Positions 3,900 to 34,208 of a stretch of DNA of 34,208 nucleotides are shown here, piece after piece. Numbering within the stretch: the stretch's first letter is position 1; each line of letters begins with the position of its first letter. The stretch lies in assembly GCF_000379465.1 (NCBI RefSeq), contig NZ_KB905413.1:167-34374 (forward strand), written 5' to 3'. This DNA is from Sciscionella marina DSM 45152. Its GTDB lineage: Bacteria; Actinomycetota; Actinomycetes; Mycobacteriales; Pseudonocardiaceae. The position numbers and the translations under genes are program-made. The notes beneath the pieces were generated by a model. The model saw only the letters and a program-made list of their open reading frames with translations, was not told the DNA's origin and ran no database searches.

Positions 3900-3908
3900 G
3901 AAGTCTCC

Positions 3909-7488: not shown

Positions 7489-7492
7489 CCCG

Positions 7493-10299: not shown

Positions 10300-10329
10300 T
10301 GCAATCCTCTCACGACTCAAGCCGTCATA

Positions 10330-14434: not shown

Positions 14435-14444
14435 CGATCCTGGG

Positions 14445-16689: not shown

Positions 16690-17712
16690 ATGGTCCAGTT
16701 CTTTACCGGGCTCCAGCCCCTCGAGGCCGGCGAGACCGACCCGGACCGAATGCTCGAGCGGGTCCACGAACTGGACCGGTCGCAGGCGATCGACCGGGTA
16801 CTGGTCGGGTACTCCTCGACCTGGCCGCACAACCATGCGACCGCGCCCTTTGCGCTCGCGGCAACCGAGAAATTCTCCCCGATCGTCGCCCATCGGCCCG
16901 GTGTCATGCCGCCGGTGGCAGCGGCACGATACTTCGCGACCCTGGATGTGTTGGCGCGCGGACGGCTCGCTATCAACCTCGTCGTCGGTGGGTCCGATAA
17001 AGACTTGCGCCGCGAGTCCGACGACCTGCCTAAGGAGGAGCGCTATCGGCGCGCGATCGAGTACCTTGATGTGATCCGCCGAACCTGGACCGCAACCGAT
17101 CAGTTCGACCACCATGGCGACTACTACGCCGCAGAAGCGGTGAAGATCCAAACAAAGCCTGCGCAGGGGCAAGTGCCGATCTTCATGGGCGGGGAGAGCG
17201 ATAACGCGGTCGACTTCGGCGCGCGTCACGCGGACCTGTACATGCTGTGGGGGGAACCGTTCGCGGGCACGAAGGAACGCATCGAACGGGTTGTCGCTGC
17301 ATCCGAACGCTACGAGCGGCAGATGCGGTTCTCGCTGAGCCTACGGCTGTTCGTCGGCGATTCCGACGACGATGCCTGGGCGCAAGCCCGTGCGGTCGAA
17401 CACCAAATCGCGGCAGCGAGTGGCCAGTTCCTCCGTTCCTCCTCGACCGACACTTCGGTGGGGCGGCAGCGGGCGCTGGCGTTGACCGAGGAGGAGCTGC
17501 ATGACGACTGCTTCTGGACCGGGCTGACGAAATTGCTCGGTGGTTTCGCCAACTCCCAAGCGCTCGTCGGCACCGAGGAGCGCATCCTGAACACGTTGGG
17601 CACCTACCGTGATCTCGGCATCGACACGTTCCTGGTGACCACAGGCGCCGAGGCAGCCTGGGACCCGACGCTCGAAGACTTCCTGGCCCGGGCGAAGAAG
17701 GAGCTGGGATGA
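16690..17712 (+). CDS. LLM class flavin-dependent monooxygenase (SsuD-like)
   Basis: A 340-residue bacterial-luciferase-like TIM barrel. Sequence blocks match alkanesulfonate monooxygenase SsuD: LVGYSSTWPHNHATAPFALA, FSPIVAHRPGVMPPVAAARY, LDVLARGRLAINLVVGGSDK and YMLWGEPFAGTKERIERV. SsuD enzymes use FMNH2 from a separate reductase to cleave C-S bonds. Other members of the group attack C-N or C-C bonds, so the substrate may be a sulfonate but is not proven. The reductase at 15047 fits as partner. AAAGGAGG (16677-16684) precedes ATG 16690. A 140-nt gap separates it from the dehydrogenase. Its stop overlaps the ligase start as ATGA. Confidence 0.9.
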   Translation: MVQFFTGLQPLEAGETDPDRMLERVHELDRSQAIDRVLVGYSSTWPHNHATAPFALAATEKFSPIVAHRPGVMPPVAAARYFATLDVLARGRLAINLVVGGSDKDLRRESDDLPKEERYRRAIEYLDVIRRTWTATDQFDHHGDYYAAEAVKIQTKPAQGQVPIFMGGESDNAVDFGARHADLYMLWGEPFAGTKERIERVVAASERYERQMRFSLSLRLFVGDSDDDAWAQARAVEHQIAAASGQFLRSSSTDTSVGRQRALALTEEELHDDCFWTGLTKLLGGFANSQALVGTEERILNTLGTYRDLGIDTFLVTTGAEAAWDPTLEDFLARAKKELG

Positions 17713-19325
17713 CCCGGACCGTCGTGTCACCCAAGGAACTCGCGGACGACACCGTCGGTGGTCTCGTCGCCGCACGGGCCCGGACACTCCAGGACAAGCC
17801 CGCCTTGGTGTCCGGCGATACCGAACTCACCTACGGTCACCTGGACGAGACCGTTTCCCAGGTGGCCCGCGGCCTGCTCGCGATCGGTTCCGCGCCGGGC
17901 GACTCCGTCGGCATCCTGCTGCCCAACCGTGTCGAGTATCTGCTCGCCTGGTTCGGTGCCGCCCGGGCAGGGCTGGTCGAGGTGCCGGTCAACACCGCCT
18001 ACAAGGGCATGTTTCTCGATCACGCGCTGCGCAGTACCGCCGTGCGGGTCTTGGTCACCGAGGCCGGCCTCCTCGAGCTCGTCGCCGACCTTCCCGAACC
18101 ACCTGAAACGCTCACGACGGTGGTCTTGCTGGACGAGGTCAGGCCCAGCCGCACGCTGCCCGGCGTCAGAGTGCTGACCTGGCGTGAGCTTCTCGCCGAC
18201 GGCGAATGCGCAGCCGAGCTGCCCGAGGTCGGCCCGGCGGATCCGGTGGCGATCATGTTGACCTCCGGCACTACCGGCCACAGCAAAGGAGTCGTCTACC
18301 CCAACCGCATGCAAGTGGTCGCCGCCCGAGAGTGCACAGCGCAAATGGGCACCACCCCCGATGAACGGCTTTACACATGCCTGCCGCTGTTCCACGGTGC
18401 TGCGCAGGTCAATCTCGCTTTGCACGGCCTGTACGCCGGTGCGACCGTGGTACTCGGCAGGCGGTTTTCCGCGAGCCGGTTCTGGGACGAGTTGCGCGCG
18501 AATCGCGTCACCCAGTTCAACGCACTCGGCTCGATGCTGCCGGCACTCCTCGCGCAGCCGGCCTCGAACTCCGACCGCGACCACCATGCGCAGCGTGCGT
18601 TTGCCGCCCCCGCCCCAGAAACGGTACTCCAACCGTTCGAGAAACGCTTCGGTGTGCACATCGTCGAAGGCTACGGACTCACCGAGACCAAGAACATTCT
18701 TTACAACCCGCTGTCAGGGCGCAGGATCGGCTCGATCGGGTTGCCCACAGCATCATCCATCGTCGAGGTCCACGACACGTCCGGGCAACCAGCTGCGCCG
18801 GGCCAGGCGGGCGAAATCGTCTACCGCCCCCGTGAGCCGCACATCATGTTTTCCGGCTACCACCACGATGCCGAGGCGACCCTCGCGACGATCCGCGATC
18901 TGTGGTGGCACACAGGGGATCTCGGCTACACCGACGAGGATGGCTACTTCTATTTCATCGACCGTAAGAAAGATGCGCTGCGCCGCCGCGGCGAGAACAT
19001 ATCCTCGCACGAGGTCGAATCCGTACTGCTCGCCTACCCAGGAGTCGTCGCCGCCGCCGTCGTCGGCACACCCTCGGAACTCGGTGAAGACGAGGTACTG
19101 GCCTTACTACAGCTGGAATCCGGACAGCAGCTCGATTTCGCTGAGCTCTTCTCTTACTGCGACCGGTCGATGCCGCACTTCATGGTGCCCCGCTATTACC
19201 GGGTCCTCGACCAGCTACCTGCCACCCCGACCGGCAAAGTGCGCAAGACCGAACTGCGCAGTCAGGGGCGGACCGGCGCATGGGACGCGCAGCTCGCCGG
19301 GCTCACACCGACCCGCCATGCCTGA
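17709..19325 (+). CDS. class I adenylate-forming acyl-CoA synthetase (CaiC/FadD-like)
   Basis: A 538-residue AMP-binding ligase that should activate a carboxylic acid with ATP and CoA. Motifs are MLTSGTTGHSKGVVYPN (phosphate loop, about 180), VEGYGLTETKNILYNP (about 318), WWHTGDLGYTDEDGYFYFID, DRKKDALRRRGENISSHEVE and the terminal PTGKVRKTEL with the catalytic Lys. The overall pattern resembles crotonobetaine/carnitine-CoA ligases and other short-acid ligases; substrate specificity cannot be read safely. It is translationally coupled to the monooxygenase (ATGA overlap), so its substrate is likely the acid formed by, or upstream of, that enzyme. The lyase gene follows. Confidence 0.93.
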   Translation: MTRTVVSPKELADDTVGGLVAARARTLQDKPALVSGDTELTYGHLDETVSQVARGLLAIGSAPGDSVGILLPNRVEYLLAWFGAARAGLVEVPVNTAYKGMFLDHALRSTAVRVLVTEAGLLELVADLPEPPETLTTVVLLDEVRPSRTLPGVRVLTWRELLADGECAAELPEVGPADPVAIMLTSGTTGHSKGVVYPNRMQVVAARECTAQMGTTPDERLYTCLPLFHGAAQVNLALHGLYAGATVVLGRRFSASRFWDELRANRVTQFNALGSMLPALLAQPASNSDRDHHAQRAFAAPAPETVLQPFEKRFGVHIVEGYGLTETKNILYNPLSGRRIGSIGLPTASSIVEVHDTSGQPAAPGQAGEIVYRPREPHIMFSGYHHDAEATLATIRDLWWHTGDLGYTDEDGYFYFIDRKKDALRRRGENISSHEVESVLLAYPGVVAAAVVGTPSELGEDEVLALLQLESGQQLDFAELFSYCDRSMPHFMVPRYYRVLDQLPATPTGKVRKTELRSQGRTGAWDAQLAGLTPTRHA

Positions 19326-19335
19326 AGGAACCACC

Positions 19336-20265
19336 ATGGTCGACGAAGTACACATTCGTGAGATCGCGCCACGCCTGACGTTCCAGAACCATCTCGTCCC
19401 GACCGAGGTCAAAATCGAACTGGTGCGACGACTCATCGACGCCGGGGTCCGGGCATTCGAGCTGTCTTCCTTCGTGCGGCCGGACCTGATCCCGGGACTC
19501 GCCGATGCCGAAGACGTGTTCTCGGGCATCCCTCGTGTGCCCGGGCTGCGCCTAGGCTGCTGTGTTGGCAATACTCACGGACTCGTGCGGGCTATCGACG
19601 CCGGCGCGGATGCCGCGTCGTTCCTGCTGTCGGCCGACGAGGACTTCGCCCTCGCCAACACCGGACGCTCCACGACAGAATCCCTGAGCGAACTCGAACG
19701 CATGGCGGCCTACGCCGCCGACTACGACATCGTGCTCGCCACGTACGTGATTTTCGCCTGGGGCGGCCCCACCGGCCCCGCCAGGGACGGAGCACAGCTT
19801 GAACCACTGGCGCGCCGGTTGCTCGATATCGGCGTGGATCATTGGATCCTCGCCGACTCGTCCGGATACGCGGCCCCGCCGCAGGTGCGCGAGCTCGTGA
19901 CCACCGCACTCGCCCATGTACCCGCCGAAAATCTCACCGTGCAGATACACGACACGCGCGGCATGGGCCTGGCCGCCTTGCCGTCCCTGCTCGAGCTTGG
20001 TATTCGCAACATCGATACCGCGCTCGCAGGCAGCGGTGGACACCCCGCCATGCCAGGTACTCCGGGGGGCGGAATTTGCACCGAAGACGCCATCCAGTTC
20101 CTCGAACTGTGTGGCGTACCGACCGGCATCCACCTGCCCCGGCTCGTCGACACGGCCAACTGGTTCGCCGAGCAAATCGGCATACCCAACAAAGGTTTCG
20201 TACGGCACACCGGCCCGGTACCACGTGAGAACGGGGCCACGAAGCCACTGACATTCACCTGGTGA
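19336..20265 (+). CDS. HMG-CoA lyase-like protein with altered active site
   Basis: A 309-residue TIM barrel of the HMGL-like/DRE family. The overall pattern is clear: HIREIAPRLTFQN at the start, VGNTHGLVRAIDAGADAASF, SADEDFALANTGRSTTES, a late IHDTRGMGLAALPSLLELGI and GGICTED. Compared with human HMG-CoA lyase, several key positions differ. The metal ligand Asp42 corresponds to Leu14, His233 to Gln203, Asn275 to Gly246 and catalytic Cys266 to His236, while Arg41 (Arg13) and His235 (His205) remain. It is therefore unlikely to be a normal HMG-CoA lyase. It could cleave or rearrange another CoA ester made by the preceding ligase. ATG 19336 with GAAGGA upstream is preferred to ATG 19318, which overlaps the ligase. 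Confidence 0.8.
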   Translation: MVDEVHIREIAPRLTFQNHLVPTEVKIELVRRLIDAGVRAFELSSFVRPDLIPGLADAEDVFSGIPRVPGLRLGCCVGNTHGLVRAIDAGADAASFLLSADEDFALANTGRSTTESLSELERMAAYAADYDIVLATYVIFAWGGPTGPARDGAQLEPLARRLLDIGVDHWILADSSGYAAPPQVRELVTTALAHVPAENLTVQIHDTRGMGLAALPSLLELGIRNIDTALAGSGGHPAMPGTPGGGICTEDAIQFLELCGVPTGIHLPRLVDTANWFAEQIGIPNKGFVRHTGPVPRENGATKPLTFTW

Positions 20266-20292
20266 CAAAGCTACCGAACCAAGGAGAAAGCC

Positions 20293-21759
20293 ATGCCGAA
20301 AGTTGTCGTCGCCGGCGCGGGTTTGGCCGGGCTCACCGCCGCGATCTCCGCTCGTGAAGCCGGTGCGAACGTGGTACTGCTGGAGAAAGGCGACCGCACC
20401 GACGTCGGCGGCAACGCCGCGTTCTCCGGAGGATTATTCCTATTCTGCTACGACGGACCGGCCGATCTGACCTCGATCACCCAGGACTACGAAGCCGGCA
20501 TGTGGGCCGACCGGATCGAGGCGCCGCCGTACACCACTGAGGCCTACACGGACGAGTTGATGGCGATGAGCAACGGCCGCGCCGACCCGCAACTCGTCAG
20601 AGCACTCACGAACAGGTCGCTCGACACCGTGCGGTGGCTCACCGAGAAAGGCGTGCGCTTCACCTTCAACCGCACTGTGGGTGCCCACGTTCGTGAGGGC
20701 ATCCTGCACATCCCGCCTGGGCAGATTCTGACCAGCACCGGCAACGGCATGTCGCGCGGGTTCGAGGTGATCAAACCGTTGGTGCGGCGCGCCGAGCAGC
20801 TCGGGGTCGAGTTCCGCTGGTCCACGCCGCTCGTCGAAGTGCTTCGTAGCAATGGACGTGCCGTTGCTGCCGCAGTCGGCGACGATGAACCCGTACCGGC
20901 CGACGCACTGGTGATCACTAGCGGTGGGTTTCAGGCAAACACCGAACTGCGGCGCCGTTACCTGGGGCCGGAGTGGGAGAACGTCAAACTCCGTGGCACC
21001 CGCTTGGCCACGGGTGACGGGCTCACGGCGGCGCTGCGTGCCGGCGCGGGTGAGGCTGGAACGTGGGCAAGCTGCCACTCGGCGGCCGTGGATCCGACAA
21101 TGCCCTCGCCTGGGTGCAGCGAGGCAGCACCACCGTTCCCACTGCACGGTTTCTGGCTTGGCGTGCTCGTCAACCGGGATGGCGAGCGGTTCGTCGACGA
21201 AGGCCCCGGCCCCTGGGTGAAGAACTACTCGAAAATGGGCAAGGCGATCATGCGCCAACCGGGTTGCGAGGCGTACGAGATCTTCGACCAACGCACCGCG
21301 AAACGCGTGGCCGACGAGTTCGCCGGGGACGCGGTCCCGATCGTGGCGGCCACCGTGCCCGAACTCGCCGAGCGCATCGGCACCCCAGCTGACGCGCTCG
21401 TCCGAACGATCAAGGAGTTCAATCGCGCCTGCCAAGACAGCCGGACCGCGAAAGGCATCACGCCCCCCAAATCGCAGGACGCCACTCCACTGGACCACCC
21501 GCCGTTTGTCGCCTACCATGCCGTCGCCGGGTTGACGTTTACCTTCGGCGGGGTACGGATAGACCCGAACGGACGGGCCCTCGATCCCGACGGCGTCCCC
21601 GTACCCGGTCTGTACGCGGCGGGTGAGGCCACCGGGGGCCTGTTCTATGGGGACTACCCCGGCGGTGCCGCCCTTATGCGCGCCGCGGTATTCGGCCGCG
21701 CAGCGGGCCGCACCGCCGCGATCGAGGGTTCCGATTCAGCCGGACTGGAGAGTTTCTAG
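20293..21759 (+). CDS. FAD-dependent dehydrogenase/fumarate reductase flavoprotein family (TcuA-like)
   Basis: A 488-residue FAD_binding_2 flavoprotein. The dinucleotide motif VVVAGAGLAGLTAAISAREA is followed by LLEKG and GGNAAFSGGLFLF. The second FAD contact region is GLYAAGEATGGLFYGDYPGG near the C-terminus. This layout fits tricarballylate dehydrogenase TcuA, fumarate reductase flavoprotein and 3-ketosteroid dehydrogenase; TcuA is closest by feel because of the GGNA.FSGG..F.YDG block. It should desaturate a CH-CH bond next to a carbonyl or carboxylate. AAGGAG lies upstream of ATG 20293 and the gene follows the lyase by 27 nt. Its last 24 nt overlap the convergent MmgE/PrpD gene. Confidence 0.88.
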   Translation: MPKVVVAGAGLAGLTAAISAREAGANVVLLEKGDRTDVGGNAAFSGGLFLFCYDGPADLTSITQDYEAGMWADRIEAPPYTTEAYTDELMAMSNGRADPQLVRALTNRSLDTVRWLTEKGVRFTFNRTVGAHVREGILHIPPGQILTSTGNGMSRGFEVIKPLVRRAEQLGVEFRWSTPLVEVLRSNGRAVAAAVGDDEPVPADALVITSGGFQANTELRRRYLGPEWENVKLRGTRLATGDGLTAALRAGAGEAGTWASCHSAAVDPTMPSPGCSEAAPPFPLHGFWLGVLVNRDGERFVDEGPGPWVKNYSKMGKAIMRQPGCEAYEIFDQRTAKRVADEFAGDAVPIVAATVPELAERIGTPADALVRTIKEFNRACQDSRTAKGITPPKSQDATPLDHPPFVAYHAVAGLTFTFGGVRIDPNGRALDPDGVPVPGLYAAGEATGGLFYGDYPGGAALMRAAVFGRAAGRTAAIEGSDSAGLESF

Positions 21760-23082
21760 CAGGCGCGACAACGGGATCCGGTCGAGACCAGCAATGCAGT
21801 CCAAGATCGCCTGGCTGCCGGCGCGGCCGTAAACGGGATCAACTGCCAAATGAAACCGCCGGACGATCTGCACGGCGGTCATCGAGGGAAAGGCATCCTG
21901 CTCGGCAACCAGCGTGGACCCGTTGTCGAGTAGCACCTCGACATGGGATCCATTCCGCTGTGGGAATTCCTTGGTAAGGTGCGGATCCACCGTCAGCCGC
22001 GACCGGGCGGCCAACTGTTTCGTCCCGAGGTCATCGAGGTTCTTCCAGTTCTGGTCGAAGATACCGCCAGTCACGAGTACGGAAGCAACGCTGAACTGCA
22101 CACTCAACTGCGCGGCGACGACATCGGTGACCGGGCCGCTGTTGTTGCACCCCGGATACCGCACCGCCTGCTCTGGGAGTCGGATGCCGACTGCTTCGAT
22201 GCGCTTCCAGTCCGGATGGTGCCGTCGCACGATCTCCTCGGCCAACTGGCACGGCCCCTGGACGTAGATGCACGCCGGGGCGGGCTTGTGCACGATGTCG
22301 CGAATCGCGTAACCGCTGCCCAGCCCTTCGATGAGCCGGGACGACCGGTGCCGCGCACCGAAGCCCGCGAGCAATCCCGCCTCGCCCTCCAGGGCACCGC
22401 GGGCCGCGGTCAATTTGTGGCGTGCCAGCAAGGCCGCCTCCACACCCGCCCGCGCAGCCATCGCCGAATGCAGCACATGCTCCTGCGTACCGGCGCGCGC
22501 CCATTCGTTGAGCCCGCACGCGGCACTCGCCGCCATGCCGAGCGCGCCCTGAGTGCCGTGGCGATCGAGCGCCAAGAGGTGCGCACATGCCGCGGCCGCC
22601 GCGACCGGTCCCGTCAGACCGGTCGGCCGGAACGTCGCAGCCACCCCCGGCGTGATCAGTGCGGAACCGAGACGGCACATTACTTCATAGCCGACCACCA
22701 CCGCGGACAACAACCGGCCGGCAGGCACATCCTCCTGCTCCGCCAACGCCAGTAGTGCGGGAAAAAGCACCATGCCAGGATGCGAGGAGCTCTCGACGTG
22801 CGTGTCAGTGCGAGCAGTCGCCGCCGCCGACACACTGGTGAGATAAGCCGCAGTCGGAGCGGTGGCACGTGTGGCCGCACCCAGCACCTGCGCGGCACCC
22901 TCATCCCCACCGGATACACCCAGTGCCTTCACGGCTGAGCGCGCTTCTTCCGAAGAAACGAGCGCCGCGGACAAAAAGTCCGCCAGACACAACTTGGCCT
23001 TGACGATGACGTCCCCTGGCATCCGTTGCGTTGCCACGCTCACACAAAAGCCCGCCAACTCACCCGTGATGTCACCGCACAT
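21736..23082 (-). CDS. MmgE/PrpD family protein (first copy)
   Basis: A 448-residue protein of the family that includes 2-methylcitrate dehydratase, cis-aconitate decarboxylase and iminodisuccinate epimerase. Family parts visible are LCLADFLSAALVSSEEA, a THVESSSHPGMVLFPALLAL block and VHKPAPACIYVQGP, matching the KPYPxC region. The usual acidic LDFDD before the DTH motif is replaced by TARTD, so catalysis may differ from typical PrpD. It is transcribed toward the FAD dehydrogenase and overlaps it by 24 nt tail to tail. ATG 23082 has TATACT exactly 6 nt upstream and no ribosome-binding site, so it is probably leaderless. It likely belongs to the MarR-controlled pathway. Confidence 0.88.
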   Translation of the reverse strand: MCGDITGELAGFCVSVATQRMPGDVIVKAKLCLADFLSAALVSSEEARSAVKALGVSGGDEGAAQVLGAATRATAPTAAYLTSVSAAATARTDTHVESSSHPGMVLFPALLALAEQEDVPAGRLLSAVVVGYEVMCRLGSALITPGVAATFRPTGLTGPVAAAAACAHLLALDRHGTQGALGMAASAACGLNEWARAGTQEHVLHSAMAARAGVEAALLARHKLTAARGALEGEAGLLAGFGARHRSSRLIEGLGSGYAIRDIVHKPAPACIYVQGPCQLAEEIVRRHHPDWKRIEAVGIRLPEQAVRYPGCNNSGPVTDVVAAQLSVQFSVASVLVTGGIFDQNWKNLDDLGTKQLAARSRLTVDPHLTKEFPQRNGSHVEVLLDNGSTLVAEQDAFPSMTAVQIVRRFHLAVDPVYGRAGSQAILDCIAGLDRIPLSRLLETLQSG

Positions 23083-25290: not shown

Positions 25291-25467
25291 CGGCCGCGCC
25301 TTCCGGTTGCTACGGCCAGCCGCAAAATAGGCAGACCAGTGGTCCTCGTCGCATGCTGCGGCGATGCCTATCGGCACGAGGCTTGTCGCCGATGTGCGGC
25401 CGGTTCGCGTGGCACGTGTGGACGCTGCGGTCCCCGCGGCGCTGCGGTGTTCGGTACAGCGGGGCGG

Positions 25468-26250
25468 CTATTGTTCCGGTTCGCTTGCCAGCAGGGCGCG
25501 GGAGATCGCGGCGGCGGTTGCCGTGATGTCGGCGGCGAGTTTCTCGGCGACGGCTCTGGTCAGCCGGAACGATGGCGCGCCCATGGCGACGGCGGCGACG
25601 AGCGTCCTTCCTGCCCCGAAAACGGGCGCGGCCAGTGAGTTCAGTCCCGGTTCCCGTTCCTCCTCGGTGAAGGCCCAGCCCTGTTTGCGGACCTGGTCGA
25701 GCAGCTTCTCCAGCACCTGCGGATCGGTGATGCTGTATTCGGTGTAGCCGGGTAGCCCTTCTTCGAGCGCCGCCTGGTGGGCCTGTTCGTCGTAGGCCAT
25801 CAGCACTTTCCCCGCCGCCCCTGCCTGGAGCGGCAGGATCTGGCCGATGTAGCCGCGGTAGATGATGGAGTGCGTGGATTCGGCGCCGAGCACGGAGACC
25901 CGGTTAGTGCCCTGGCGGACGTAGATGCCACAGGATTCCCGGCTGCGGTCGCGTAGCGCGGTGATGTGCGGTCCGGCGGCGGCGAGCAGATCGGAACCGG
26001 CTTTCGCTGCCGCGGACCACGCGGTGACACGCAGGCCGATGCTGTACTCCTGGCGCTGGCGCTGGAGCAGGTTCTCGCCGACGAGAGTGCGCAGGATGCG
26101 CGCGACGGTCGAGGTCGGCATGCCAGTGGCCTGGACGATGTCGGCCGCGCGCAGCCTCGGCGTTGTGGCGGAGAAACAGTCGAGTATCTGCGCCGACTTG
26201 CGCACGACCTGCACCGAACCGCCGTCGGTCCGTTCCCGATCGGTTGGCAC
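25468..26250 (-). CDS. IclR family transcriptional regulator
   Basis: A 260-residue IclR-type regulator. The N-terminal winged helix reads SAQILDCFSATTPRLRAADI and GMPTSTVARILRTLVGENLL. The effector domain contains RESCGIYVRQG, ILPLQAGAAGKVLMAYDEQ and the C-terminal LNSLAAPVFGAGRTLVAAVA block. GTG 26250 is the start; the ribosome-binding site is weak. It is divergent from the operon starting at 26419, and a perfect 24-bp inverted repeat lies between them, so it most likely controls that operon and perhaps itself. IclR proteins commonly sense small organic acids, which suits the enzymes next door. Ligand unknown. Confidence 0.92.
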   Translation of the reverse strand: MPTDRERTDGGSVQVVRKSAQILDCFSATTPRLRAADIVQATGMPTSTVARILRTLVGENLLQRQRQEYSIGLRVTAWSAAAKAGSDLLAAAGPHITALRDRSRESCGIYVRQGTNRVSVLGAESTHSIIYRGYIGQILPLQAGAAGKVLMAYDEQAHQAALEEGLPGYTEYSITDPQVLEKLLDQVRKQGWAFTEEEREPGLNSLAAPVFGAGRTLVAAVAMGAPSFRLTRAVAEKLAADITATAAAISRALLASEPEQ

Positions 26251-26320
26251 CCTGACGACCTCGCTTCCCGCAGTGCGGCAAGAGCTGCCGCTGGCCGGTC
26301 AAATTCGCATGCCTTTGTGC

Positions 26321-26344
26321 CGTCTGTCAAGTCCTTGACAGACG
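26321..26344. promoter_or_regulatory. 24-bp inverted repeat, candidate IclR operator
   Basis: CGTCTGTCAAG and CTTGACAGACG form perfect 11-bp arms around TC. The element lies 71 bp before the IclR start and 75 bp before the lyase start. Each arm carries a TTGACA or its inverse that could serve as -35 in either direction, although no good -10 was found at 17 nt. Confidence 0.7.
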
Positions 26345-26418
26345 ATGCTGGTTGCCGAAGAGTGAACCGCATTGTGGCAATGATATTCACGATGCAGCAT
26401 TACGGAGGAGTGGTTTTC

Positions 26419-27288
26419 GTGTCGGAGATCCGTTCCCGGTTGCGGGAACTGCTTGCCGAGCGGTCGGCGGTCGTGGCACCTGGCGTGTTCGACGGGCTGT
26501 CCGCGGCATTGACCGTGAGCGCGGGGTTCCGCGCCGCCTACCTGTCGGGCGCGGCGGTCGCGGCCGCGAACGGCCTGCCGGACGTCGGCCTTGCCACGCA
26601 GACGGAGTTCGTGCAGCTGCTGGCGCTGGTCTCGGGCAGGATGGACGTCCCGGTCATCGCGGACGCGGATACCGGCTTCGGCGATGTCACACACGCCTAC
26701 CGCACGGTCCAGCTCTACGAGCGGGCGGGCGCTGCGGCGATCCAGCTTGAGGACCAGGAGTTCCCGAAGCGCTGCGGCCACATCGACGGCAAGCGGGTCG
26801 TGGACGCCGAGGAGTTTGCCCGCAAGATCGAAGCCGCCGCGCAGGCCCGGCGCGATCCGGAAACAGTGCTGATCGGGCGCACCGATGCCTGTGCCGTGCA
26901 CGGTTTCGACGAGGCGGTGCGGAGGGGCAATCTGTACGCCGAGGCCGGGGCTGATCTGGTGTTCCTCGAGGCGCCGGGCACGTTCGACCAGGTGCGGCGG
27001 GTGCCGGCCGAGGTGACGGCGCCAGCGCTGTTCAACCTGGTACCGCGCGGCAAGACGCCGCAGGTCGAATTGGCCGAGCTCGCCGAGCTCGGCTACGCAC
27101 TGGTGATCATGCCCGGCCTGTGCGTGGGCAGCGCAGCTGCCGCCATGCGCGCGGCGCTGGAACGGGCGGCGCGCGGGGACGTGGGTACGGACGGGCAGGA
27201 TTCGCCACGCGGCCTGTTCGACGCGCTCGGCCTGTCGTTCTGGGAGGACCTGCGGGAGAGCTACGCGGGGCAGGCCGCCGATGCCTGA
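26419..27288 (+). CDS. isocitrate lyase/PEP mutase family lyase (methylisocitrate or 2,3-dimethylmalate lyase-like)
   Basis: A 289-residue alpha/beta barrel of the PEP mutase/isocitrate lyase superfamily. Metal-site residues appear as DADTGFGD (82-89) and EDQ (111-113). KRCGH (117-121) carries the Cys119 that is typical of lyases (PrpB, isocitrate lyase, Dml) and absent from PEP mutases and hydrolases. It should split a 2-alkylmalate or methylisocitrate into pyruvate (or glyoxylate) plus an acid. GTG 26419 is chosen because GGAGGAG (26404-26410) is 8 nt upstream and the N-terminus then matches the family. The stop overlaps the next ATG by 8 nt. With the split hydratase and PrpF-like isomerase it resembles 2,3-dimethylmalate lyase context. 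Confidence 0.87.
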   Translation: MSEIRSRLRELLAERSAVVAPGVFDGLSAALTVSAGFRAAYLSGAAVAAANGLPDVGLATQTEFVQLLALVSGRMDVPVIADADTGFGDVTHAYRTVQLYERAGAAAIQLEDQEFPKRCGHIDGKRVVDAEEFARKIEAAAQARRDPETVLIGRTDACAVHGFDEAVRRGNLYAEAGADLVFLEAPGTFDQVRRVPAEVTAPALFNLVPRGKTPQVELAELAELGYALVIMPGLCVGSAAAAMRAALERAARGDVGTDGQDSPRGLFDALGLSFWEDLRESYAGQAADA

Positions 27289-28531
27289 AACGCTGATCCA
27301 GAAGGTACTCGGCCGGGCATCGGGCGGGCAGGCGGAGGTCGGGGAGATCGTTGTCTGCGAGGTGGACCTGACCGCGCTGATCGACATCCAGTTCGCCCAT
27401 GACCGGCTGGCCGATGTGGTCAGCGTCGCGGATCCGGACCGGATCATGATCGTGTTCGATCACGCTGTCCCTGCGCCTTCGATACGCGATGCGGAATCCG
27501 GCCGCAAAGCGCGAGCCTTCGCCGCCGAGCACGGCATCCGGAAGCTGTTCGACCTCGGACAGCACGGCATCGTCCACCAGGTACTCGCCGAGCAAGGGCT
27601 CGCCAGGCCGGGCTGGGTGGTCGCCTGCACCGATTCGCATACCTGCGCGGCGGGCGCTGTCGGTGCGGCGGCACGCGGGCTCGGTCCCGCCGAGGTGCTC
27701 CAGATCGTGTGCACCGGGCGCACCTGGCACCAGGTTCCCCCGACCGTCCACTATGCACTCAGCGGGCGGAAAAGCCCGTGGGTCAACGGAAAAGACATCT
27801 TCCTGCACATCGCGGGTCGGTACGGCGACGCAACAGGGCACGCGGTCGAGTTCGGCGGTCCTGGCCTTGCCGAGCTGCCGATGGCCGACCGGCGGACGAT
27901 CGCGACCCAGGGGGCCGAGATCGGCGCCGACTTCACCATTTTCCCTGCCGATCAGCATTGCCTGGACTATGTCACCGCGGCGGCGCCGGATGCCGAACCG
28001 GCACCGGTGCGACCGGACGAGGACGCCGAATACGCTGCGGTGCGCGGGATCGAGCTAAGTGGCATCTCGCCGATGGTCGCCAGGCCGGGCACCGTGATCG
28101 AGAACGCCGGACCGGTCGGCGACCTCGTCGGCACCAGGATAGACCAGGCGTTCATCGGTTCCTGTGCGAACGGACAGCTCGCCGATCTCGAGGTCGCCGC
28201 GGAAATCCTGAAAGGCCAACAGGTCGCCAGCGGAACCCGGCTGATCGTCACCCCGGCGAGCCAGCGGATCTACCTCGAGGCGTCCAGGCGCGGCCTGCTC
28301 GCCGATCTGGTCGAGGCAGGGGCGACGGTCACCAACCCGACCTGCGGGGCCTGCTTCGGCTACCACATGGGCACCCTGGCCGCCGGCGAGGTGTGCATCA
28401 CCGCGAGTACCCGGAACTTCAAGGGACGCATGGGAAGCACGGAGGCCGAAGTGTACATGGCCTCACCGGCGACCGTGGCCGCTTCTGCGATCAGGGGAGT
28501 CATCAGCGATGTTCGGGAGGTGGTCGGGTGA
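27281..28531 (+). CDS. aconitase/isopropylmalate dehydratase-type large subunit (DmdA-like)
   Basis: A 416-residue 4Fe-4S hydro-lyase of the LeuC/homoaconitase type. The cluster ligands are Cys295 (GSCANG), Cys355 and Cys358 (PTCGACFG). Other family parts are FDHAVPAPSIRDAE, ACTDSHTCAAGAVGAAARGL and ADRRTIATQGAEIGADF. Length fits archaeal-type LeuC and DmdA (about 420), not full aconitase (about 900). It needs the small subunit encoded next. It overlaps the lyase by 8 nt and the small subunit by GTGA. No leu genes are near, so leucine synthesis is unlikely; hydration of a dimethylmaleate- or aconitate-like acid is inferred from context. Confidence 0.9.
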   Translation: MPETLIQKVLGRASGGQAEVGEIVVCEVDLTALIDIQFAHDRLADVVSVADPDRIMIVFDHAVPAPSIRDAESGRKARAFAAEHGIRKLFDLGQHGIVHQVLAEQGLARPGWVVACTDSHTCAAGAVGAAARGLGPAEVLQIVCTGRTWHQVPPTVHYALSGRKSPWVNGKDIFLHIAGRYGDATGHAVEFGGPGLAELPMADRRTIATQGAEIGADFTIFPADQHCLDYVTAAAPDAEPAPVRPDEDAEYAAVRGIELSGISPMVARPGTVIENAGPVGDLVGTRIDQAFIGSCANGQLADLEVAAEILKGQQVASGTRLIVTPASQRIYLEASRRGLLADLVEAGATVTNPTCGACFGYHMGTLAAGEVCITASTRNFKGRMGSTEAEVYMASPATVAASAIRGVISDVREVVG

Positions 28532-29028
28532 ACCAGGTCAGCGGCAGGGCGTGGGTGTTCGGTGACGGTATCAACACCGACGACATGTACCCGGGTTTCG
28601 CGATGCGGCTGCCGATCGAGGAGGCCGCGCGACACATGTTCCACGCGAGCAGGCCGGAATGGCCGCAGCTCGTGCATCCGGGCGATGTCGTCGTCGCCGG
28701 ACGCAATTTCGGGCTCGGCTCGAGCAGACCGGTTCCCTTGCTGTTCCGGGAACTCGGGGTCGCCGCACTGGTCGCGGAGCAGTTCAACAGCCTGTTTTTC
28801 CGCAACTGCATCAACTACGGCCTTCCTGCTGCGACGCTGCCATCGGCGACCAGGCTGATCCGCGAGGGCGAGACGGTGCTGATCGACTTCACCGACGGCA
28901 GCCTGCGCGTCGGCGAAACGGTCCACCCGATCGCGCCGCTGCCTGAGCTGCTGCGTGCGGTGCTCGACGCGGAAGGACTGCTCCGGCAACTCGAACTGGA
29001 CGGCAAACTCCGGCCGGGGAAAGGATAA
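28528..29028 (+). CDS. aconitase/isopropylmalate dehydratase-type small subunit (DmdB-like)
   Basis: A 166-residue swivel-domain subunit. VFGDGINTDDMYPG at the start is the LeuD signature (GDNIDTD). RNFGLGSSRPVPLLFRELGV contains the GSSR substrate-binding loop, and the block NSLFFRNCINYGLPA follows. In IPMI enzymes the loop between these controls substrate size; here GSSRPVP replaces GSSREHA, which suggests a different substrate. GTG 28528 overlaps the large-subunit stop, with GGGAGG 8-9 nt upstream. It forms a heterodimer or tetramer with the preceding protein. The isomerase gene starts 2 nt after its stop. Confidence 0.9.
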   Translation: MNQVSGRAWVFGDGINTDDMYPGFAMRLPIEEAARHMFHASRPEWPQLVHPGDVVVAGRNFGLGSSRPVPLLFRELGVAALVAEQFNSLFFRNCINYGLPAATLPSATRLIREGETVLIDFTDGSLRVGETVHPIAPLPELLRAVLDAEGLLRQLELDGKLRPGKG

Positions 29029-29030
29029 CG

Positions 29031-30167
29031 ATGTCAGACCAGGAAACGGTCCGATGTGTGCTCATGCGAGGCGGTACGAGCAAGGGCGTGTATTTCCACG
29101 AATCCGATCTACCCAAACCAGGACCGCGGAGGGACCGACTGCTCAAGCGGCTGATGGGCACCCCTGACGTACTGCAGATCGACGGGCTCGGCGGTTCCCG
29201 TCCGATCACATCGAAGGTGGCGATCATCGCACCGTCCGCAAGGGACGACGCCGACGTCGACTACACCTTCGCGCAGGTCTCGATCGACGAGGACGAGATC
29301 AATTATACCGGCAACTGCGGCAACATCTCCTCCGGGGTAGGGCCGTTCGCGATCGACGAGGGAATCGTTCCGGCCGTCGACGAGATCACCGAAGTGCGGA
29401 TCCACAACACCAACACCGGGAAAATACTCGTGGCACACGTGCCAGTCGGCGACGGTAAGTCCAAAGTGGATGGTGACTTCGCGCTGCCGGGAGTGCCGGG
29501 TACCGGCGCGGAAATCGTGATGGACTGGAGCGGTACGGTCGGAGCAAAGACCGGCAAACTGCTGCCGACCGGTTGCCCGGTCGATGACATCGAACTGTCC
29601 GACGGGACGTGCGTTGCCGCTACCATCTGCGATGCGGGTAACCCTGCGGTCTGGGCGCACGCCGAAGACTTCGGGCTCACCGGCAGCGAACTCAGCGCGG
29701 AGATCAACGAGAACACCGCGCTGATCGACCGAGTGCGCGAACTGCGCGGCCGGGCCGCCGTGCTCGCTGGTCTCTGCACCGACTGGCGTGCGGTGGACAC
29801 GCAGTCACCTGGCATCCCGCTTGCCGGGCTGGTCGCCCCTCCGGCGGGTTACACGACGCTCAATGGCGCCGATATCGCCGCGCGAGACATGGATCTGCGG
29901 GTCCGCTTGCTGTTCATGAACCGGCTGCACGAAAGCATCGCCGGTACCGCATCGATCTGTCTCACCGCCGCGTCGAGGGTGCCAGGGTCGGTGCCGGGAA
30001 AGGTCGGCGCCAACCGCACGGATGGCTTGCTGCTTGCCGGCCACCCCTCGGGTGTCACCCCGGTGCGGGTCGAGGGCTCGTCCGTCCACTTCGGACTGCT
30101 CGGGTTCAGCCGAACGGCGCGGCGCCTGATGGACGCCACCGCCTACTATCCGCGTTCCACCTTCTGA
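29031..30167 (+). CDS. PrpF family isomerase (3-methylitaconate / methylaconitate isomerase-like)
   Basis: A 378-residue protein with two diaminopimelate-epimerase-like domains. The PrpF signature RGGTSKGVYF is near residue 13, GLGGSRPITSKVAII includes the conserved Ser/Thr-Lys, and TGNCGNISSGVGPFAIDEG carries the catalytic Cys. C-terminal GLLGFSRTARRLMDA also fits. Known members shift a double bond: PrpF acts on 2-methylaconitate, Mii of Eubacterium barkeri on 3-methylitaconate, and GalD on oxalomesaconate. Coupling to a split hydratase and a KRCGH lyase favours a Mii-like role. The start is ATG 29031, with GAAAGGA 5 nt upstream. Confidence 0.9.
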   Translation: MSDQETVRCVLMRGGTSKGVYFHESDLPKPGPRRDRLLKRLMGTPDVLQIDGLGGSRPITSKVAIIAPSARDDADVDYTFAQVSIDEDEINYTGNCGNISSGVGPFAIDEGIVPAVDEITEVRIHNTNTGKILVAHVPVGDGKSKVDGDFALPGVPGTGAEIVMDWSGTVGAKTGKLLPTGCPVDDIELSDGTCVAATICDAGNPAVWAHAEDFGLTGSELSAEINENTALIDRVRELRGRAAVLAGLCTDWRAVDTQSPGIPLAGLVAPPAGYTTLNGADIAARDMDLRVRLLFMNRLHESIAGTASICLTAASRVPGSVPGKVGANRTDGLLLAGHPSGVTPVRVEGSSVHFGLLGFSRTARRLMDATAYYPRSTF

Positions 30168-30183
30168 GCCAACGGGAGTACGC

Positions 30184-31521
30184 ATGGCAATGTTGCCGAT
30201 GCGCAGTGACTCAGCGGAAATCGCCGCGAATCTGGATCGGTTACCGGTCGGCCCATGGCATCGGCGCGTCGTTGCCTTGATGGGGATCGGCACCTTCTTC
30301 AACTTCTTCGAGGTCGGACTCGGCAGCCTGCTTGTCACGCTGATCCCGTCCGCATGGGCGGACACCACGCTGGCCAAGTCGATGGTGATCGGCTCGGCGT
30401 TCGCCGGGGAGCTGATCGGTGCGCTGGTGCTCGCCCCGCTTTCGGATCAGTTCGGCCGACGCAGGATGTTCCAGATCAATCTGCTCGCTTACGCCGGATT
30501 CTCACTACTGTGCACGCTTTCCCCTAGTTTCGCGGTATTCGTACTGCTGCGGGTGATCGTCGGTATCGGGCTCGGTGCCGAACTGGTGCTCGTGGACACC
30601 TATCTCGCCGAGCTCGTACCGGCCGCGCGGCGCGGGCTGCTGATCGGGGTCTGCTATTTCATCGGCTGGCTCGCGCTGCCGGTCTCAGCGCTGCTGGCCG
30701 CGAACCTGCCACATGTGCTGGCAGGCCTGGAAAGCTGGCGGTGGCTGCTGATCATCAGCGCGCTCGGCGCTGTCCTGGTCTGGTTCACCAGACGCGGACT
30801 CAGTGAGTCACCACGGTGGCTGGCCGCCAAGGGCAGACGGGCCGAGGCGCTCGCGGTGCTGCGCAAAATCGGCGGCGATGTGCCTCCCGCCGAGCCGGAC
30901 TCCATATCCACTGTGGACCCGCAGGACCGGCCGAAACTGCTTCGCCGTCCGCTGCTCGGCCGGACGCTGCTGGCCTGCCTGATCTGGGCATGCCAGACGA
31001 TCGGGGTGCTCGGCTTCTCCAGCATCGCGCCGCTTGTGTTGATACACAAGGGATTCAGCGTCCTGCACTCGCTTGGCTATACGGCCGCGACGGCCAGCGG
31101 CTATCCGATCGGTGCCGCACTGGTCGTGTTGTTCGCCGAACGCTTCCAGCGCAAGCATTTGCTGGTGATCTCCTCGGTGCTGGTCGCCGCGAGCGGCGCG
31201 CTCTTCGGCTTCACGAGTTCGGCGTGGCTGGTGGTGCTGGCCGGTACCGCACTGAACGTGTTCAACGTGATCATGGGCAATCTCAGCCATTCCTACACGC
31301 CGGAGCTGTTCCCGACCTCGGTGCGCAGTACGGCGGCAGGGCGAACCTATTCCTTGTCCCGCCTGGTGTCCGCCGTCTTCCCGTTCATCACGCTTCCGTT
31401 CCTGTACGCCTTCGGTGCCGGCGCCCTCTTCGGCGTCTGCGCGATTCTCATCCTCGCGATGAGCATCGGGGTCGCACTGTTCGGACCGCGCACCAATGCC
31501 AGGCAACTCGATACGATCTGA
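30184..31521 (+). CDS. MFS transporter, probable organic-acid symporter
   Basis: A 445-residue major facilitator with 12 predicted helices. The loop 2-3 motif is LAPLSDQFGRRRMF, and helix 4 holds RVIVGIGLGAELVLVDTYLA with LVPAARRGLLIG after it. The second half repeats weaker MFS features (LFPTSVRSTAAGRTY near the end). The pattern fits the metabolite:H+ and sugar porter group; specificity is not readable. It sits inside the operon between the isomerase and the second MmgE/PrpD gene, so it likely imports the di- or tricarboxylate degraded there. ATG 30184 with GGGAG upstream is chosen; ATG 30190 is possible. Confidence 0.9.
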   Translation: MAMLPMRSDSAEIAANLDRLPVGPWHRRVVALMGIGTFFNFFEVGLGSLLVTLIPSAWADTTLAKSMVIGSAFAGELIGALVLAPLSDQFGRRRMFQINLLAYAGFSLLCTLSPSFAVFVLLRVIVGIGLGAELVLVDTYLAELVPAARRGLLIGVCYFIGWLALPVSALLAANLPHVLAGLESWRWLLIISALGAVLVWFTRRGLSESPRWLAAKGRRAEALAVLRKIGGDVPPAEPDSISTVDPQDRPKLLRRPLLGRTLLACLIWACQTIGVLGFSSIAPLVLIHKGFSVLHSLGYTAATASGYPIGAALVVLFAERFQRKHLLVISSVLVAASGALFGFTSSAWLVVLAGTALNVFNVIMGNLSHSYTPELFPTSVRSTAAGRTYSLSRLVSAVFPFITLPFLYAFGAGALFGVCAILILAMSIGVALFGPRTNARQLDTI

Positions 31522-31531
31522 TCGGAGCGAC

Positions 31532-32875
31532 ATGTCCGCGACCGCGAAACTGGCCGAATTCACCACGAGTGATTTGCGGCTGCCCGAACTGGTACCGCCC
31601 CGGCTGCGCGATCTGGTTCTCGACTATATCGGGATTTCGGCGTTCGCCTCGAATCACGCGGAGAACGTGCCCGCCGTGCGCGCCGCGGTCGATGCACTCG
31701 ACCCCGGCGATGGTCAGACAACGGTGATCGGTGAACCTCGCGGCTACCACAGCCAGTACGCCGCGCTGCTCAATGGCTGTTACGCGCATTCCCTCGATTT
31801 CGATGACACCAACCACCTTCAGATCGGGCATCCCGGCGCACCGGTCATCTCCGCGGCATTCGCCGAGGCCGAGGACACTGGAGCGGACGGGCGTGCCTTC
31901 CTCGAGGCACTCGCCGTCGGCTACGAGGTCAGCTGCCGGGTCGGTGCCGCCGTCGGAGCGAGCAGTTACGATCGCGGTTTCCATCTGACCTCGACCTCGG
32001 GGATCTTCGGAGCCGCCGCCGCGGTCGCCCGGCTGCGTTCGTTCGACAAGGAAACGGTGGAGCACACGTTCGGGCTCGTGCTGAGTAAGGCGGCGGGAAC
32101 CATGCAGTACCTGGCGAACGGGGCGTGGAACAAACGGCTGCACCCGGGATTCGCCGCGCACGATGCGCTGGTGTGTGCCACGCTCGCGGGAGCGGGCGTG
32201 CGCGGGGCCGCCCATGCGATCGACGGACAGTACGGTCTGCTGCGCGGATACAGTGACGATCCCCGACCCGCCGCGCTGACCGAGGGGCTCGGCGAGACGT
32301 GGACTCTGCTGGAGACCGCGATCAAACCGTACCCGTCCTGCCGGTTCACTCATGCCGCCGTCGACGCCGCGCTCGCGCTGCGCACACGGGTCCCGGAAAC
32401 CGAACGCGCACAGGCGGAGATCCGGATCGGTCTCTCTCCGACCGCGATGAAGATCGTCGGCGAGCCCGTCACGGCCAAGCTGCGCCCACAGGGTTCGGTC
32501 GATGCGCAGTTCAGCGTGTACTTCCAGGTCGCGGCCGCCTGGCTGGACGGGAAACTGGACTGGCAGAGCTACCAGCGTATCGGCGCGACGGATCTGACCG
32601 CGATGATCGACAGGATCAGCACCGAGGTCGGGGAGCTGGCGGCGCACGAAACCGTGGTGATGGCACGGATCCGAGACCAGGAGTACACCGAGTCGGTCCC
32701 GCTGCCACTCGGTGAGCCGGACAACTGGATCGGCGACGCGGCGCTGCGCGGGAAGTTCACCGGCCTCGCCGGACCAGTGTACGGCGTTGCCCGTGCCGAG
32801 GCGATCGCCGGCGCGGCGGCTGAGCTCGGTACGGGAACCGATATGCGGACGTTCATCGCATCGCTGCGGGCATGA
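31532..32875 (+). CDS. MmgE/PrpD family protein (second copy)
   Basis: A 447-residue MmgE/PrpD protein that keeps the canonical pattern: AHSLDFDDTNHLQIGHPGAP near residue 87 and IKPYPSCRFTHAAVDAAL near 266. Intermediate blocks such as GYEVSCRVGAAVG and SKAAGTMQYLANGAWNKRLH also fit. The family dehydrates 2-methylcitrate, decarboxylates cis-aconitate to itaconate, or epimerises substituted succinates, so it could form or rearrange the acid used by the hydratase. GGAG lies 5 nt before ATG 31532, 10 nt after the transporter stop. It is the last gene of the IclR-linked operon and is more conventional than the copy at 21736. Confidence 0.9.
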   Translation: MSATAKLAEFTTSDLRLPELVPPRLRDLVLDYIGISAFASNHAENVPAVRAAVDALDPGDGQTTVIGEPRGYHSQYAALLNGCYAHSLDFDDTNHLQIGHPGAPVISAAFAEAEDTGADGRAFLEALAVGYEVSCRVGAAVGASSYDRGFHLTSTSGIFGAAAAVARLRSFDKETVEHTFGLVLSKAAGTMQYLANGAWNKRLHPGFAAHDALVCATLAGAGVRGAAHAIDGQYGLLRGYSDDPRPAALTEGLGETWTLLETAIKPYPSCRFTHAAVDAALALRTRVPETERAQAEIRIGLSPTAMKIVGEPVTAKLRPQGSVDAQFSVYFQVAAAWLDGKLDWQSYQRIGATDLTAMIDRISTEVGELAAHETVVMARIRDQEYTESVPLPLGEPDNWIGDAALRGKFTGLAGPVYGVARAEAIAGAAAELGTGTDMRTFIASLRA

Positions 32876-33341
32876 TCGCCCCGGATTTGCCACGTCGTCG
32901 ATGTCAAGAAACTCGGCTCGCGATCACGCGCGATAGCAGGTAACTCGGTCTGTAACGGCGGCGGGCAGCACGGGCTCGCGTCGCGGCGCCCGGTCGAGCG
33001 GCCAGGAGTCCTGGAACAGTCGACCGACGATCGCACATGACCGGATACGCGAGCTACGCCAAGAATCGTCTGCTTGCGTGAGCGCCTGGAACGCCTCTAC
33101 GGCGAACTGCGCACCGCCGGGGCACGATTACGCCGACCGCAACGCCTCCGGCCTCGATGATTCCGTCTCAACCCGACGCGCCGATCGGCCAGTACTGGTT
33201 CCCAGGCGATCCGCGGCCTCGTTTTATGAATCTTGTGACCGATATCGAGGGTCGGGATCGAGATCCGGCGGCTCTGGTACTGCCGCAGGTGTGGAGTATG
33301 AGAGACGGCAGTCGCATGTCGGACCGGGCTCGGGTCTGCCT
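32876..33341. other. gene-free stretch between operon and IS element
   Basis: No intact gene was recognised. At about 33050-33130 the plus strand can be read, with one frame change, as RIRELRQE then LRERLERLYGELRTAGARLR. That resembles the coiled-coil tail of small proteins accompanying integrases, but the evidence is thin. No terminator hairpin was found after the MmgE/PrpD stop. Confidence 0.3.
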
Positions 33342-34208
33342 GGGTTGTGTCCGGCAGTGTGGTGTGCCAGCAGCGCATGTGGGTGTTGAGCGTGTCGTGG
33401 CTGGGAAGAGGGTGGTCACCGCGTGATCCTTCGAAGCGACCAAGCTATGAAGGAGGAAGTTCACGCGATGACCGATATCGAGCGTATCGAGCCGGGCAAG
33501 CTGCTGTCTGATCAACTTGCCGGGGCGGAGCCGGATCTGCTGCGGGAGATGCTGGGCTCGTTCATCCAGACGATCATGGGAGCCGAAGCTGACGCGCTCT
33601 GTGGTGCTGACTACGGGCAACGCGGCAGCGAGCGGGTCAACGCCCGCAACGGCTACCGCCACCGCGACTTCGACACGAGGATGGGAACGATCGAGGTAGC
33701 GATCCCGAAACTGCGGTCCGGCAGCTATTTCCCGGATTGGCTGCTGGAACGCCGCGAACGCGCCGAACGAGCCCTGACCAGCGTCGTGGCCACGTGTTGT
33801 CTGCTGGGAGTCTCGCCGGGGCGGATGGAGAAACTCGTGGAGTCCCTCGGTGTCACGAGCCTGTCGAAATCGCAGGTCTCGACCATGGCCCAAGACCTCG
33901 ACGAACAGGTTGAAACGTTCCGCACCCGACCGCTCGACGCTGGGCCGTATGCGTTCGTGGCCGCCGACGCCTTGGTGCTCAAGGTGCCAGAGAACGGGCG
34001 GGTGATCAATGTGCACTGCCTGGTCGCGACCGGGGTCAACGCCGAGGGCTACCGCGAGATCCTCGGCCTGCAGGTCGCTTCGGGTCAGGACGGGGCCGGC
34101 TGGTTGGCGTTCTTCCGCGACCTCGTCGCCCGCGGACTTACCGGGGTCCAGTTGGTCACCAGTGATGCGCACGCCGGGTTGGTTACCGCGATCGGCGCCA
34201 CCCTGCCC
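33342..34208 (+). mobile_element. IS256-family insertion sequence, left part (runs off the window)
   Basis: The likely left end begins with GGGTTGTGTCCGGCAGTGTG at 33342, about 126 bp before the transposase start, which is a normal distance for this family. The right end lies beyond the window, so inverted repeats and target duplication cannot be checked. The end is assigned by its resemblance to IS256-type termini and by position. Confidence 0.6.
33468..34208 (+). CDS. IS256-family transposase, 3' end outside the window
   Basis: The frame stays open from ATG 33468 to the window end (247 residues seen; intact relatives have about 410-430). The N-terminus is LLREMLGSFIQTIMGAEADA with CGADYGQRGSERVNARNGYR, the classic IS256 entry. 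IPKLRSGSYFPDWLLERRER and VSTMAQDLDEQVETFRTRPL follow. The first catalytic Asp is in YAFVAADALVLKV and the second in LVTSDAHAG; the third acidic residue would lie outside. AGGAGG (33451-33456) supports ATG 33468 over ATG 33447. It belongs to a different subgroup from the relic at 145-496. No disruption is visible, so the element could be active. Confidence 0.9.
   Translation, partial: MTDIERIEPGKLLSDQLAGAEPDLLREMLGSFIQTIMGAEADALCGADYGQRGSERVNARNGYRHRDFDTRMGTIEVAIPKLRSGSYFPDWLLERRERAERALTSVVATCCLLGVSPGRMEKLVESLGVTSLSKSQVSTMAQDLDEQVETFRTRPLDAGPYAFVAADALVLKVPENGRVINVHCLVATGVNAEGYREILGLQVASGQDGAGWLAFFRDLVARGLTGVQLVTSDAHAGLVTAIGATLP

Follow-up and report, generated by a model that had tools for sequence, protein, structure and literature searches.

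A predicted branched-acid degradation operon with a dimethylmalate lyase-type enzyme and a DmdAB-like hydratase in Sciscionella marina

The hydration of a 2-methyl-3-substituted maleate and its cleavage to pyruvate follow the general scheme R-C(COOH)=C(CH3)-COOH -> R-CH(COOH)-C(OH)(CH3)-COOH -> R-CH2-COOH + pyruvate. With R = CH3 the scheme is the end of the nicotinate route of Eubacterium barkeri (propionate and pyruvate), with R = CH2COOH it is that of methylcitrate, and with R = H that of citraconate. To our knowledge, dimethylmaleate chemistry is known from only one anaerobic vitamin fermentation. Here we describe an operon of this kind in Sciscionella marina DSM 45152. The stretch analysed as a whole, referred to as the window, is 34,208 nucleotides long and represents nearly the whole of the 34,374-base contig C34; the actinobacterial genome has a size of 8.5 Mb and is 98% complete. 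The operon codes for a lyase with a KRCGH loop, the two subunits of a DmdAB-like hydratase, a PrpF-family isomerase, a transporter and an MmgE/PrpD-family enzyme. As judged from the sequences, it probably serves the inducible degradation of a branched acid of external origin, in which a 2-methyl-3-R-maleate would be hydrated and then cleaved to pyruvate and R-CH2-COOH.

Among the systems compared, the Mii-Dml-DmdA-DmdB locus of E. barkeri (L047) shares with the window the same four enzyme families, the key residues and the expected chemistry. In contrast to that system, the genome studied here contains no full 2-methyleneglutarate mutase, the window adds a major facilitator superfamily (MFS) transporter and an MmgE/PrpD protein, and its lyase and isomerase belong to other clades. 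The methylcitrate cycle (PrpD, PrpF, AcnB or AcnD, PrpB) proceeds by dehydration, isomerisation, hydration and cleavage to pyruvate, in the same order as predicted for the window, but the operon is without PrpC, its lyase is not PrpB, and the host prpD-prpC pair is located on another contig. The cluster on megaplasmid pSCATT of Streptantibioticus cattleyicolor (L109) includes all five enzymes (PrpF, 66% identity; DmdA, 58%; DmdB, 55%; MmgE/PrpD, 49%; lyase, 48%), in the different order DmdA, DmdB, MmgE/PrpD, PrpF and lyase, and without a match to the window MFS protein in 31 kb. In the itaconate/methylsuccinate cluster PA0878-PA0886 of Pseudomonas aeruginosa, an MmgE/PrpD protein is also encoded beside branched dicarboxylate enzymes, and PA0881 is likely a methylsuccinate isomerase; the Pseudomonas route is, however, dependent on coenzyme A (CoA), and the available part of its description lists no DmdAB, PrpF or Dml-type lyase (PMC9875883).

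The protein families were assigned by Pfam and NCBIfam models, and both agreed with those named in a sequence-only reading of the same stretch (KRCGH lyase, DmdA-like, DmdB-like and PrpF). The tight coupling of these four genes on one strand, and the presence of a dedicated transporter and an IclR regulator, were confirmed as well (Table 1). That reading had, however, missed both MmgE/PrpD genes of the window, and the isomerase, counted there as part of the set, looks optional. Altogether, the gene set, gene order, protein families and key residues are in place. Two absences claimed earlier were also found. For PrpC, the citrate synthase family (PF00285) gave no match on the window's contig and matches only on other contigs, so that the operon contains no PrpC. 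For the B12-dependent mutase, the E. barkeri protein (L047:8142-9986, named by eye), used as a query against the genome, found six partial matches, none of which extends beyond residues 452-609 of the 614 in the query.

Table 1. Features of the operon and of associated loci in the window
Feature	Position	Strand	Models and remarks
TcuA-like flavin adenine dinucleotide (FAD) dehydrogenase, possibly an upstream step	20293..21759	+	NF006130; link to the operon putative
Second MmgE/PrpD-family gene, possibly of the same pathway	21736..23082	-	
IclR-family regulator, divergent from the operon	25468..26250	-	PF01614/PF09339
Perfect inverted repeat, two 11-base arms with 2-base spacer	26321..26344		contains TTGACA; between the IclR and lyase genes
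Lyase, isocitrate lyase (ICL)/phosphoenolpyruvate (PEP)-mutase superfamily C-C lyase (Dml-type), KRCGH loop	26419..27288	+	
DmdA-like hydratase large subunit	27281..28531	+	8-base overlap with the lyase gene
DmdB-like hydratase small subunit	28528..29028	+	4-base overlap with the DmdA-like gene
PrpF-family allylic isomerase	29031..30167	+	2-base gap after the DmdB-like gene
MFS transporter, probable substrate importer	30184..31521	+	PF00083/PF07690; direction and substrate predicted
MmgE/PrpD-family enzyme (epimerase, dehydratase or decarboxylase), last gene of the operon	31532..32875	+	PF03972/PF19305

Based on these families, we can predict the order of reactions. The MFS protein would import the branched acid, and the MmgE/PrpD and PrpF proteins would epimerise, dehydrate or isomerise it to a cis acid of the 2-methyl-3-R-maleate type. 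The DmdA/DmdB hydratase would then add water to give 2-hydroxy-2-methyl-3-R-succinate, which the KRCGH lyase would split into pyruvate and R-CH2-COOH. Control of the operon is expected to be exerted by the IclR protein, probably from the 11-base inverted repeat. This class of chemistry is plausible; several R groups are compatible with the evidence, and the substrate is a predicted one.

The lyase is a member of the PEP_mutase/ICL family, with KRCGH beginning at residue 117. Its best solved relatives are the Aspergillus niger 2,3-dimethylmalate lyase (DML, 193 bits), 4iqd (184) and the petal death protein (183); PrpB scores lower (152). The protein scores 246 bits against the PrpB cut-off of 354, and the NxTEFG Thr of four PrpB-type rows (3eoo, 4iqd, the host copy on C1 and L018) is replaced by Val. 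In the lyase tree, a group of 24 rows (support 99/95) joins the window protein to oxaloacetate hydrolase, A. niger DML and most of the actinobacterial and proteobacterial cluster lyases. Approximately unbiased (AU) tests in which the whole 12-row lyase clade was constrained to group with one reference set at a time gave p 0.013 for PrpB, p 0.0005 for E. barkeri Dml and p 0.07 for A. niger DML/oxaloacetate hydrolase; these whole-clade constraints gave weaker values than tests moving the window row alone, which exaggerate, and are the ones used. By these trees, the window lyase is outside the PrpB group, and its clade is held apart from both PrpB and E. barkeri Dml, but not from A. niger DML/oxaloacetate hydrolase.

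The hydratase large subunit scores above the TIGR02086 and TIGR01343 cut-offs and the small subunit above that of TIGR02087 ('LeuD/DmdB family'). Cys295, Cys355 and Cys358 of the large subunit are located in the expected cluster-ligand motifs and presumably hold a [4Fe-4S] cluster. In the large-subunit tree, from which L199 was excluded with its DmdA match in two pieces, the window is in its own 15-row clade (100/100). In the best tree this clade is sister to the E. barkeri group (89/91), and holding the two together gave p 0.30; a sister position to LeuC gave p 0.07, and one to archaeal isopropylmalate isomerase/homoaconitase (IPMI/HACN) p 0.05, neither value amounting to a clear rejection. 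The window large subunit alone, when moved into bacterial LeuC, gave p 6e-52 in a single-row test, which exaggerates. The tree thus places it outside the bacterial LeuC branch; the host LeuC itself is encoded on contig C9, not in the window. The placements with LeuC or PrpB that had been named as contrary to the sequence-only reading were checked, and the window proteins lie inside neither group. Actinobacterial and proteobacterial clusters draw their hydratases from two distinct branches (100/100 and 100/99), which suggests that the enzyme set was assembled more than once.

The small subunit carries the loop PGFAMR and the signature GSSRP. GSSRP is found in 14 small subunits including that of the window, whereas the E. 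barkeri protein and the three solved reference sequences have GSSRE. At the loop position, Lys or Arg is present in all 12 inner-clade members (window, L109, L191-L199 and L202), while the E. barkeri loop is PARFLN; elsewhere, Phe directly followed by Lys is found in the copy on contig C2, and Asp in L200 and L203 (L201 is outside the comparison). In homoaconitase, the Arg of YLRT recognises the extra carboxylate, and YLRT/YLVY loops are linked to specificity. A gapless loop alignment places the DmdB Arg over this homoaconitase Arg, which would mean a carboxylated R; MAFFT inserted a one-residue gap, and the uncertain alignment gives only a hint in this direction.

The isomerase scores 376 bits with the PrpF family model. 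Its best solved relative is the E. barkeri 3-methylitaconate isomerase Mii (3g7k, 348 bits; next, a PrpF-type protein, 244), to which it is 47% identical over the printed chain. Lys62 and Cys96 are present, in agreement with the importance of Lys and Cys in Shewanella PrpF according to the accessible part of that study (PMC5690661). The PrpF clade of the window is separate from Mii with a Shimodaira-Hasegawa-like approximate likelihood-ratio test (SH-aLRT) value of 100, and includes 22 of 59 rows in one tree and 23 of 105 in the all-row tree. Within 10 kb, the 20 other loci of this clade contain a Dml-type lyase in 14 cases, a LeuC-type match in 12, an MmgE/PrpD gene in 12 and all three in 7. 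The corresponding counts for 80 loci outside the clade are 12, 40, 5 and 1. These 80 are composed of 21 loci around Mii (lyase 10, LeuC-type 13, MmgE/PrpD 5, all three 1) and a remaining 59 (2, 27, 0 and 0); many of the LeuC-type matches at the other loci are longer aconitase-like proteins. The lyase and MmgE/PrpD are thus enriched beside the window clade (Fisher p 4e-6 and 5e-7, respectively, relative to all 80 loci outside it), although these p values overstate the effect because the loci are inter-related, as in the case of three near-identical Xenophilus-type loci.

For the MmgE/PrpD protein of the operon, the best solved relatives are the iminodisuccinate epimerase 2hp3 and a Bacillus IRG1 entry, and its score is far below the PrpD cut-off (49.5 versus 950 bits). 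A Pseudomonas MmgE/PrpD protein with a fold most like iminodisuccinate epimerase likely isomerises methylsuccinate, according to the part of the report at hand (PMC9875883).

After searches with the hydratase model A2, window-type hydratases were detected in 10 of 397 and 6 of 394 genomes, own genome included, giving 11 other genomes in all. The flanks of all 11 were examined, one contig being 3.1 kb and one stretch 15 kb long. A lyase adjoins the hydratase in nine of them, and MmgE/PrpD is located upstream of the lyase in five; a sixth, L200, shows a weak match about 3 kb away. In Rhodococcus sp. USK10, NitT-type ATP-binding cassette (ABC) genes (by eye), a luciferase-like protein and an arylmalonate-decarboxylase-family protein are found near the module. 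A PrpF search of the phylum at 1e-40 gave 12 of 296 genomes, own included, and no DmdA/DmdB match was found in the flanks of the 8 examined among the 11 others; in a PrpF search of the order (42 of 397 genomes), the flanks of 4 of the 41 others were examined. Of 557 relatives in a scan of genome contigs, the best 80 were kept. Another arrangement, a PrpF of the window clade and a lyase with a bacterial-branch LeuC, was observed in Xenophilus, Variovorax, Cupriavidus, Paraburkholderia fungorum, Tsuneonella and other loci, several of them with MmgE/PrpD; the small subunit in such proteobacterial-type loci is annotated in L111 and was read by eye in L037. The P. fungorum locus L037 contains four MmgE/PrpD matches, two PrpF genes, a lyase and a LeuC in one 17 kb stretch.

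A second module is present in the same genome at G000:C2:50287-57122 (L169:5288-12123), with DmdA' (45%), DmdB' (47%) and lyase' (47%). This module also holds an isochorismatase-family protein, in which the usual Cys position is Gly (by eye), a luciferase-like monooxygenase, a short-chain dehydrogenase/reductase (SDR, by eye), a flavin reductase and a RibB-like protein. It perhaps belongs to another pathway that shares this terminal module. The recurring actinobacterial core is lyase-DmdA-DmdB, beside which PrpF, MmgE/PrpD, luciferase-like or arylmalonate-decarboxylase-like genes vary. Judging by the gene sets around related modules, the isomerase is one front end among several for this core.

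Several observations weigh against the proposed route. For the PrpF step, no match was found beside the window-type hydratase in the stretches from all 11 other genomes (one of them the 3.1 kb contig), the lyase is absent next to the hydratase in L200 and L201, and 6 of the 20 PrpF-clade loci have no lyase nearby, one being a 3.9 kb contig. LeuC-type matches are not enriched beside the window PrpF clade (12/20 versus 40/80, p 0.46). Oxaloacetate hydrolase shares the same side of the lyase tree, and the lyases of L165, L166 and L203 are on the other side together with E. barkeri Dml. The Lys/Arg of the DmdB loop hints, from sequence, at an R that is not simply methyl, and the nearby TcuA-like dehydrogenase (413 bits, NF006130 cut-off 369) could indicate a tricarballylate-like substrate. 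No tested activity was found for the enzymes of any such cluster, and an open-access literature search (mostly without subscription journals, long result lists by their leading entries) gave no description of one. A gene named dml in Variovorax sp. WS11 is located in a prpC-acnD-prpF cluster which the available part of the source terms methylcitrate (PMC9804861).

Among the alternatives, the dimethylmaleate/3-methylitaconate route proper, in which R is methyl and the products are propionate and pyruvate, is rather doubtful. It would account for Mii being the closest solved isomerase and a dimethylmalate lyase the closest solved lyase, and would agree with the possible sister position of the hydratase clade to the E. 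barkeri group. However, the tree tests separate the lyase clade from E. barkeri Dml, the isomerase belongs to a distinct clade, and the PGFAMR or Lys-type DmdB loop of the inner clade differs throughout from PARFLN. The sequence-only reading had compared the operon with this E. barkeri route, and on the whole it is partly supported: its observation is confirmed and extended, and the likeness holds for the enzyme set and the class of chemistry, with Mii and A. niger DML (the latter closely followed by two other proteins) as best solved relatives. Descent from the E. barkeri pathway is not borne out by the trees, since the lyase and isomerase are separate and the hydratase is at best a sister.

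A CoA-independent itaconate/citraconate route (R = H), leading from itaconate through citraconate and citramalate to acetate and pyruvate, is unlikely. The closest solved relative of the large subunit is an isopropylmalate/citramalate isomerase, and E. barkeri Mii also converts itaconate, as stated in the part of PMC4720413 at hand. In contrast, the aerobic itaconate route runs on CoA esters in the accessible part of PMC9875883, and the conserved basic residue of the DmdB loop would be left without a partner.

A modified methylcitrate cycle (R = CH2COOH), fed by uptake of 2-methylcitrate or 2-methylaconitate, is improbable to the same degree. MmgE/PrpD and PrpF are both methylcitrate-cycle families, the DmdB-loop Arg falls on the homoaconitase Arg if the loop is aligned gapless, and a TcuA-like dehydrogenase is encoded nearby. 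Against this variant, the lyase lacks the PrpB Thr and its clade is apart from PrpB, though only at the p value given above, and the MmgE/PrpD protein falls far short of the PrpD cut-off. A prpD-prpC pair with a citrate synthase match is located on contig C35 beside a regulator read by eye as PrpR-like, which argues against the plain methylcitrate cycle but is compatible with the import of a methylcitrate analogue.

A phosphonate pathway like that of pantaphos (hvr) is highly improbable. A similar list of parts is described for it in the available part of PMC7858074, where a PEP-mutase-family protein and LeuCD homologues occur together with a flavin monooxygenase and an MFS exporter, and the luciferase-like monooxygenase of the window (16690-17712) is in keeping with this list. 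The pathway was rejected on account of the KRCGH lyase loop and a score of 113.7 bits against the PEP mutase TIGR02320 cut-off of 319.55. Trans-aconitate assimilation of the tar kind (a PrpF-family isomerase with an MFS protein, in the part of PMC11495376 at hand) was rejected because two genes suffice there and the hydratase and lyase would be left idle. Riboflavin or lumichrome as a dimethylmaleate source was dropped; the pathway described in the accessible part of PMC12746152 leads to acetoacetate and pyruvate by other enzymes.

Returning to the degradation route for a branched acid, a wider reading may be offered tentatively. The lyase-DmdA-DmdB set could serve as a plug-in terminal module in the degradation of many 2-methyl-3-substituted maleates, assembled at least twice from hydratases of different branches and joined for each R to its own front end (PrpF, MmgE/PrpD, a flavin monooxygenase, or an arylmalonate-decarboxylase-like or racemase-like protein), with the inner clade taking carboxylated R. 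Tetrapyrrole decay products of the hematinic-acid type would be an example of such carboxylated acids; a literature search on tetrapyrrole decay showed no bacterial route among the entries listed. A recurring actinobacterial and proteobacterial version, with hydratases of two branches, would point to a soil carbon source of unnamed breakdown and gives testable substrates.

The inverted repeat between the divergent IclR and lyase genes is likely the operator of the regulator. In the nearest relative cluster, L197, an IclR match (42%) adjoins the lyase gene. No second genome site of the repeat was found at up to 3 mismatches, and one other repeat with 11-base arms is present in the window (3476-3501), while 20 Markov shuffles gave 0.4 per window. 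A promoter scan for a full sigma-70-like site found none in 25400-33500. In the related cluster L196, the palindrome AATACAACTGGTTGTATT (11596-11613) lies in the region that separates the lyase gene from a divergent luciferase-like gene and is a candidate operator.

Upstream of the operon, a tightly packed group on the forward strand (16690-21759) codes for luciferase-like monooxygenase, acyl-CoA ligase, 3-hydroxy-3-methylglutaryl-CoA (HMG-CoA)-lyase-like and TcuA-like proteins, and is preceded by an Ldh_2 dehydrogenase gene (15560-16549). This group may feed the operon. About 0.6 kb behind the operon, a Mutator-family transposase gene (33465-34208, forward strand) is cut by the contig end. 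A RibBA-type gene is located near each DmdAB region of the genome, at 13195-14448 (reverse strand) in the window and, in a shorter form of 345 amino acids, at L169:11086-12123. On the reverse strand at 2949-10347, oligopeptide-type ABC transporter genes are placed between two P1/DmpA-type aminopeptidase genes, as read by eye.

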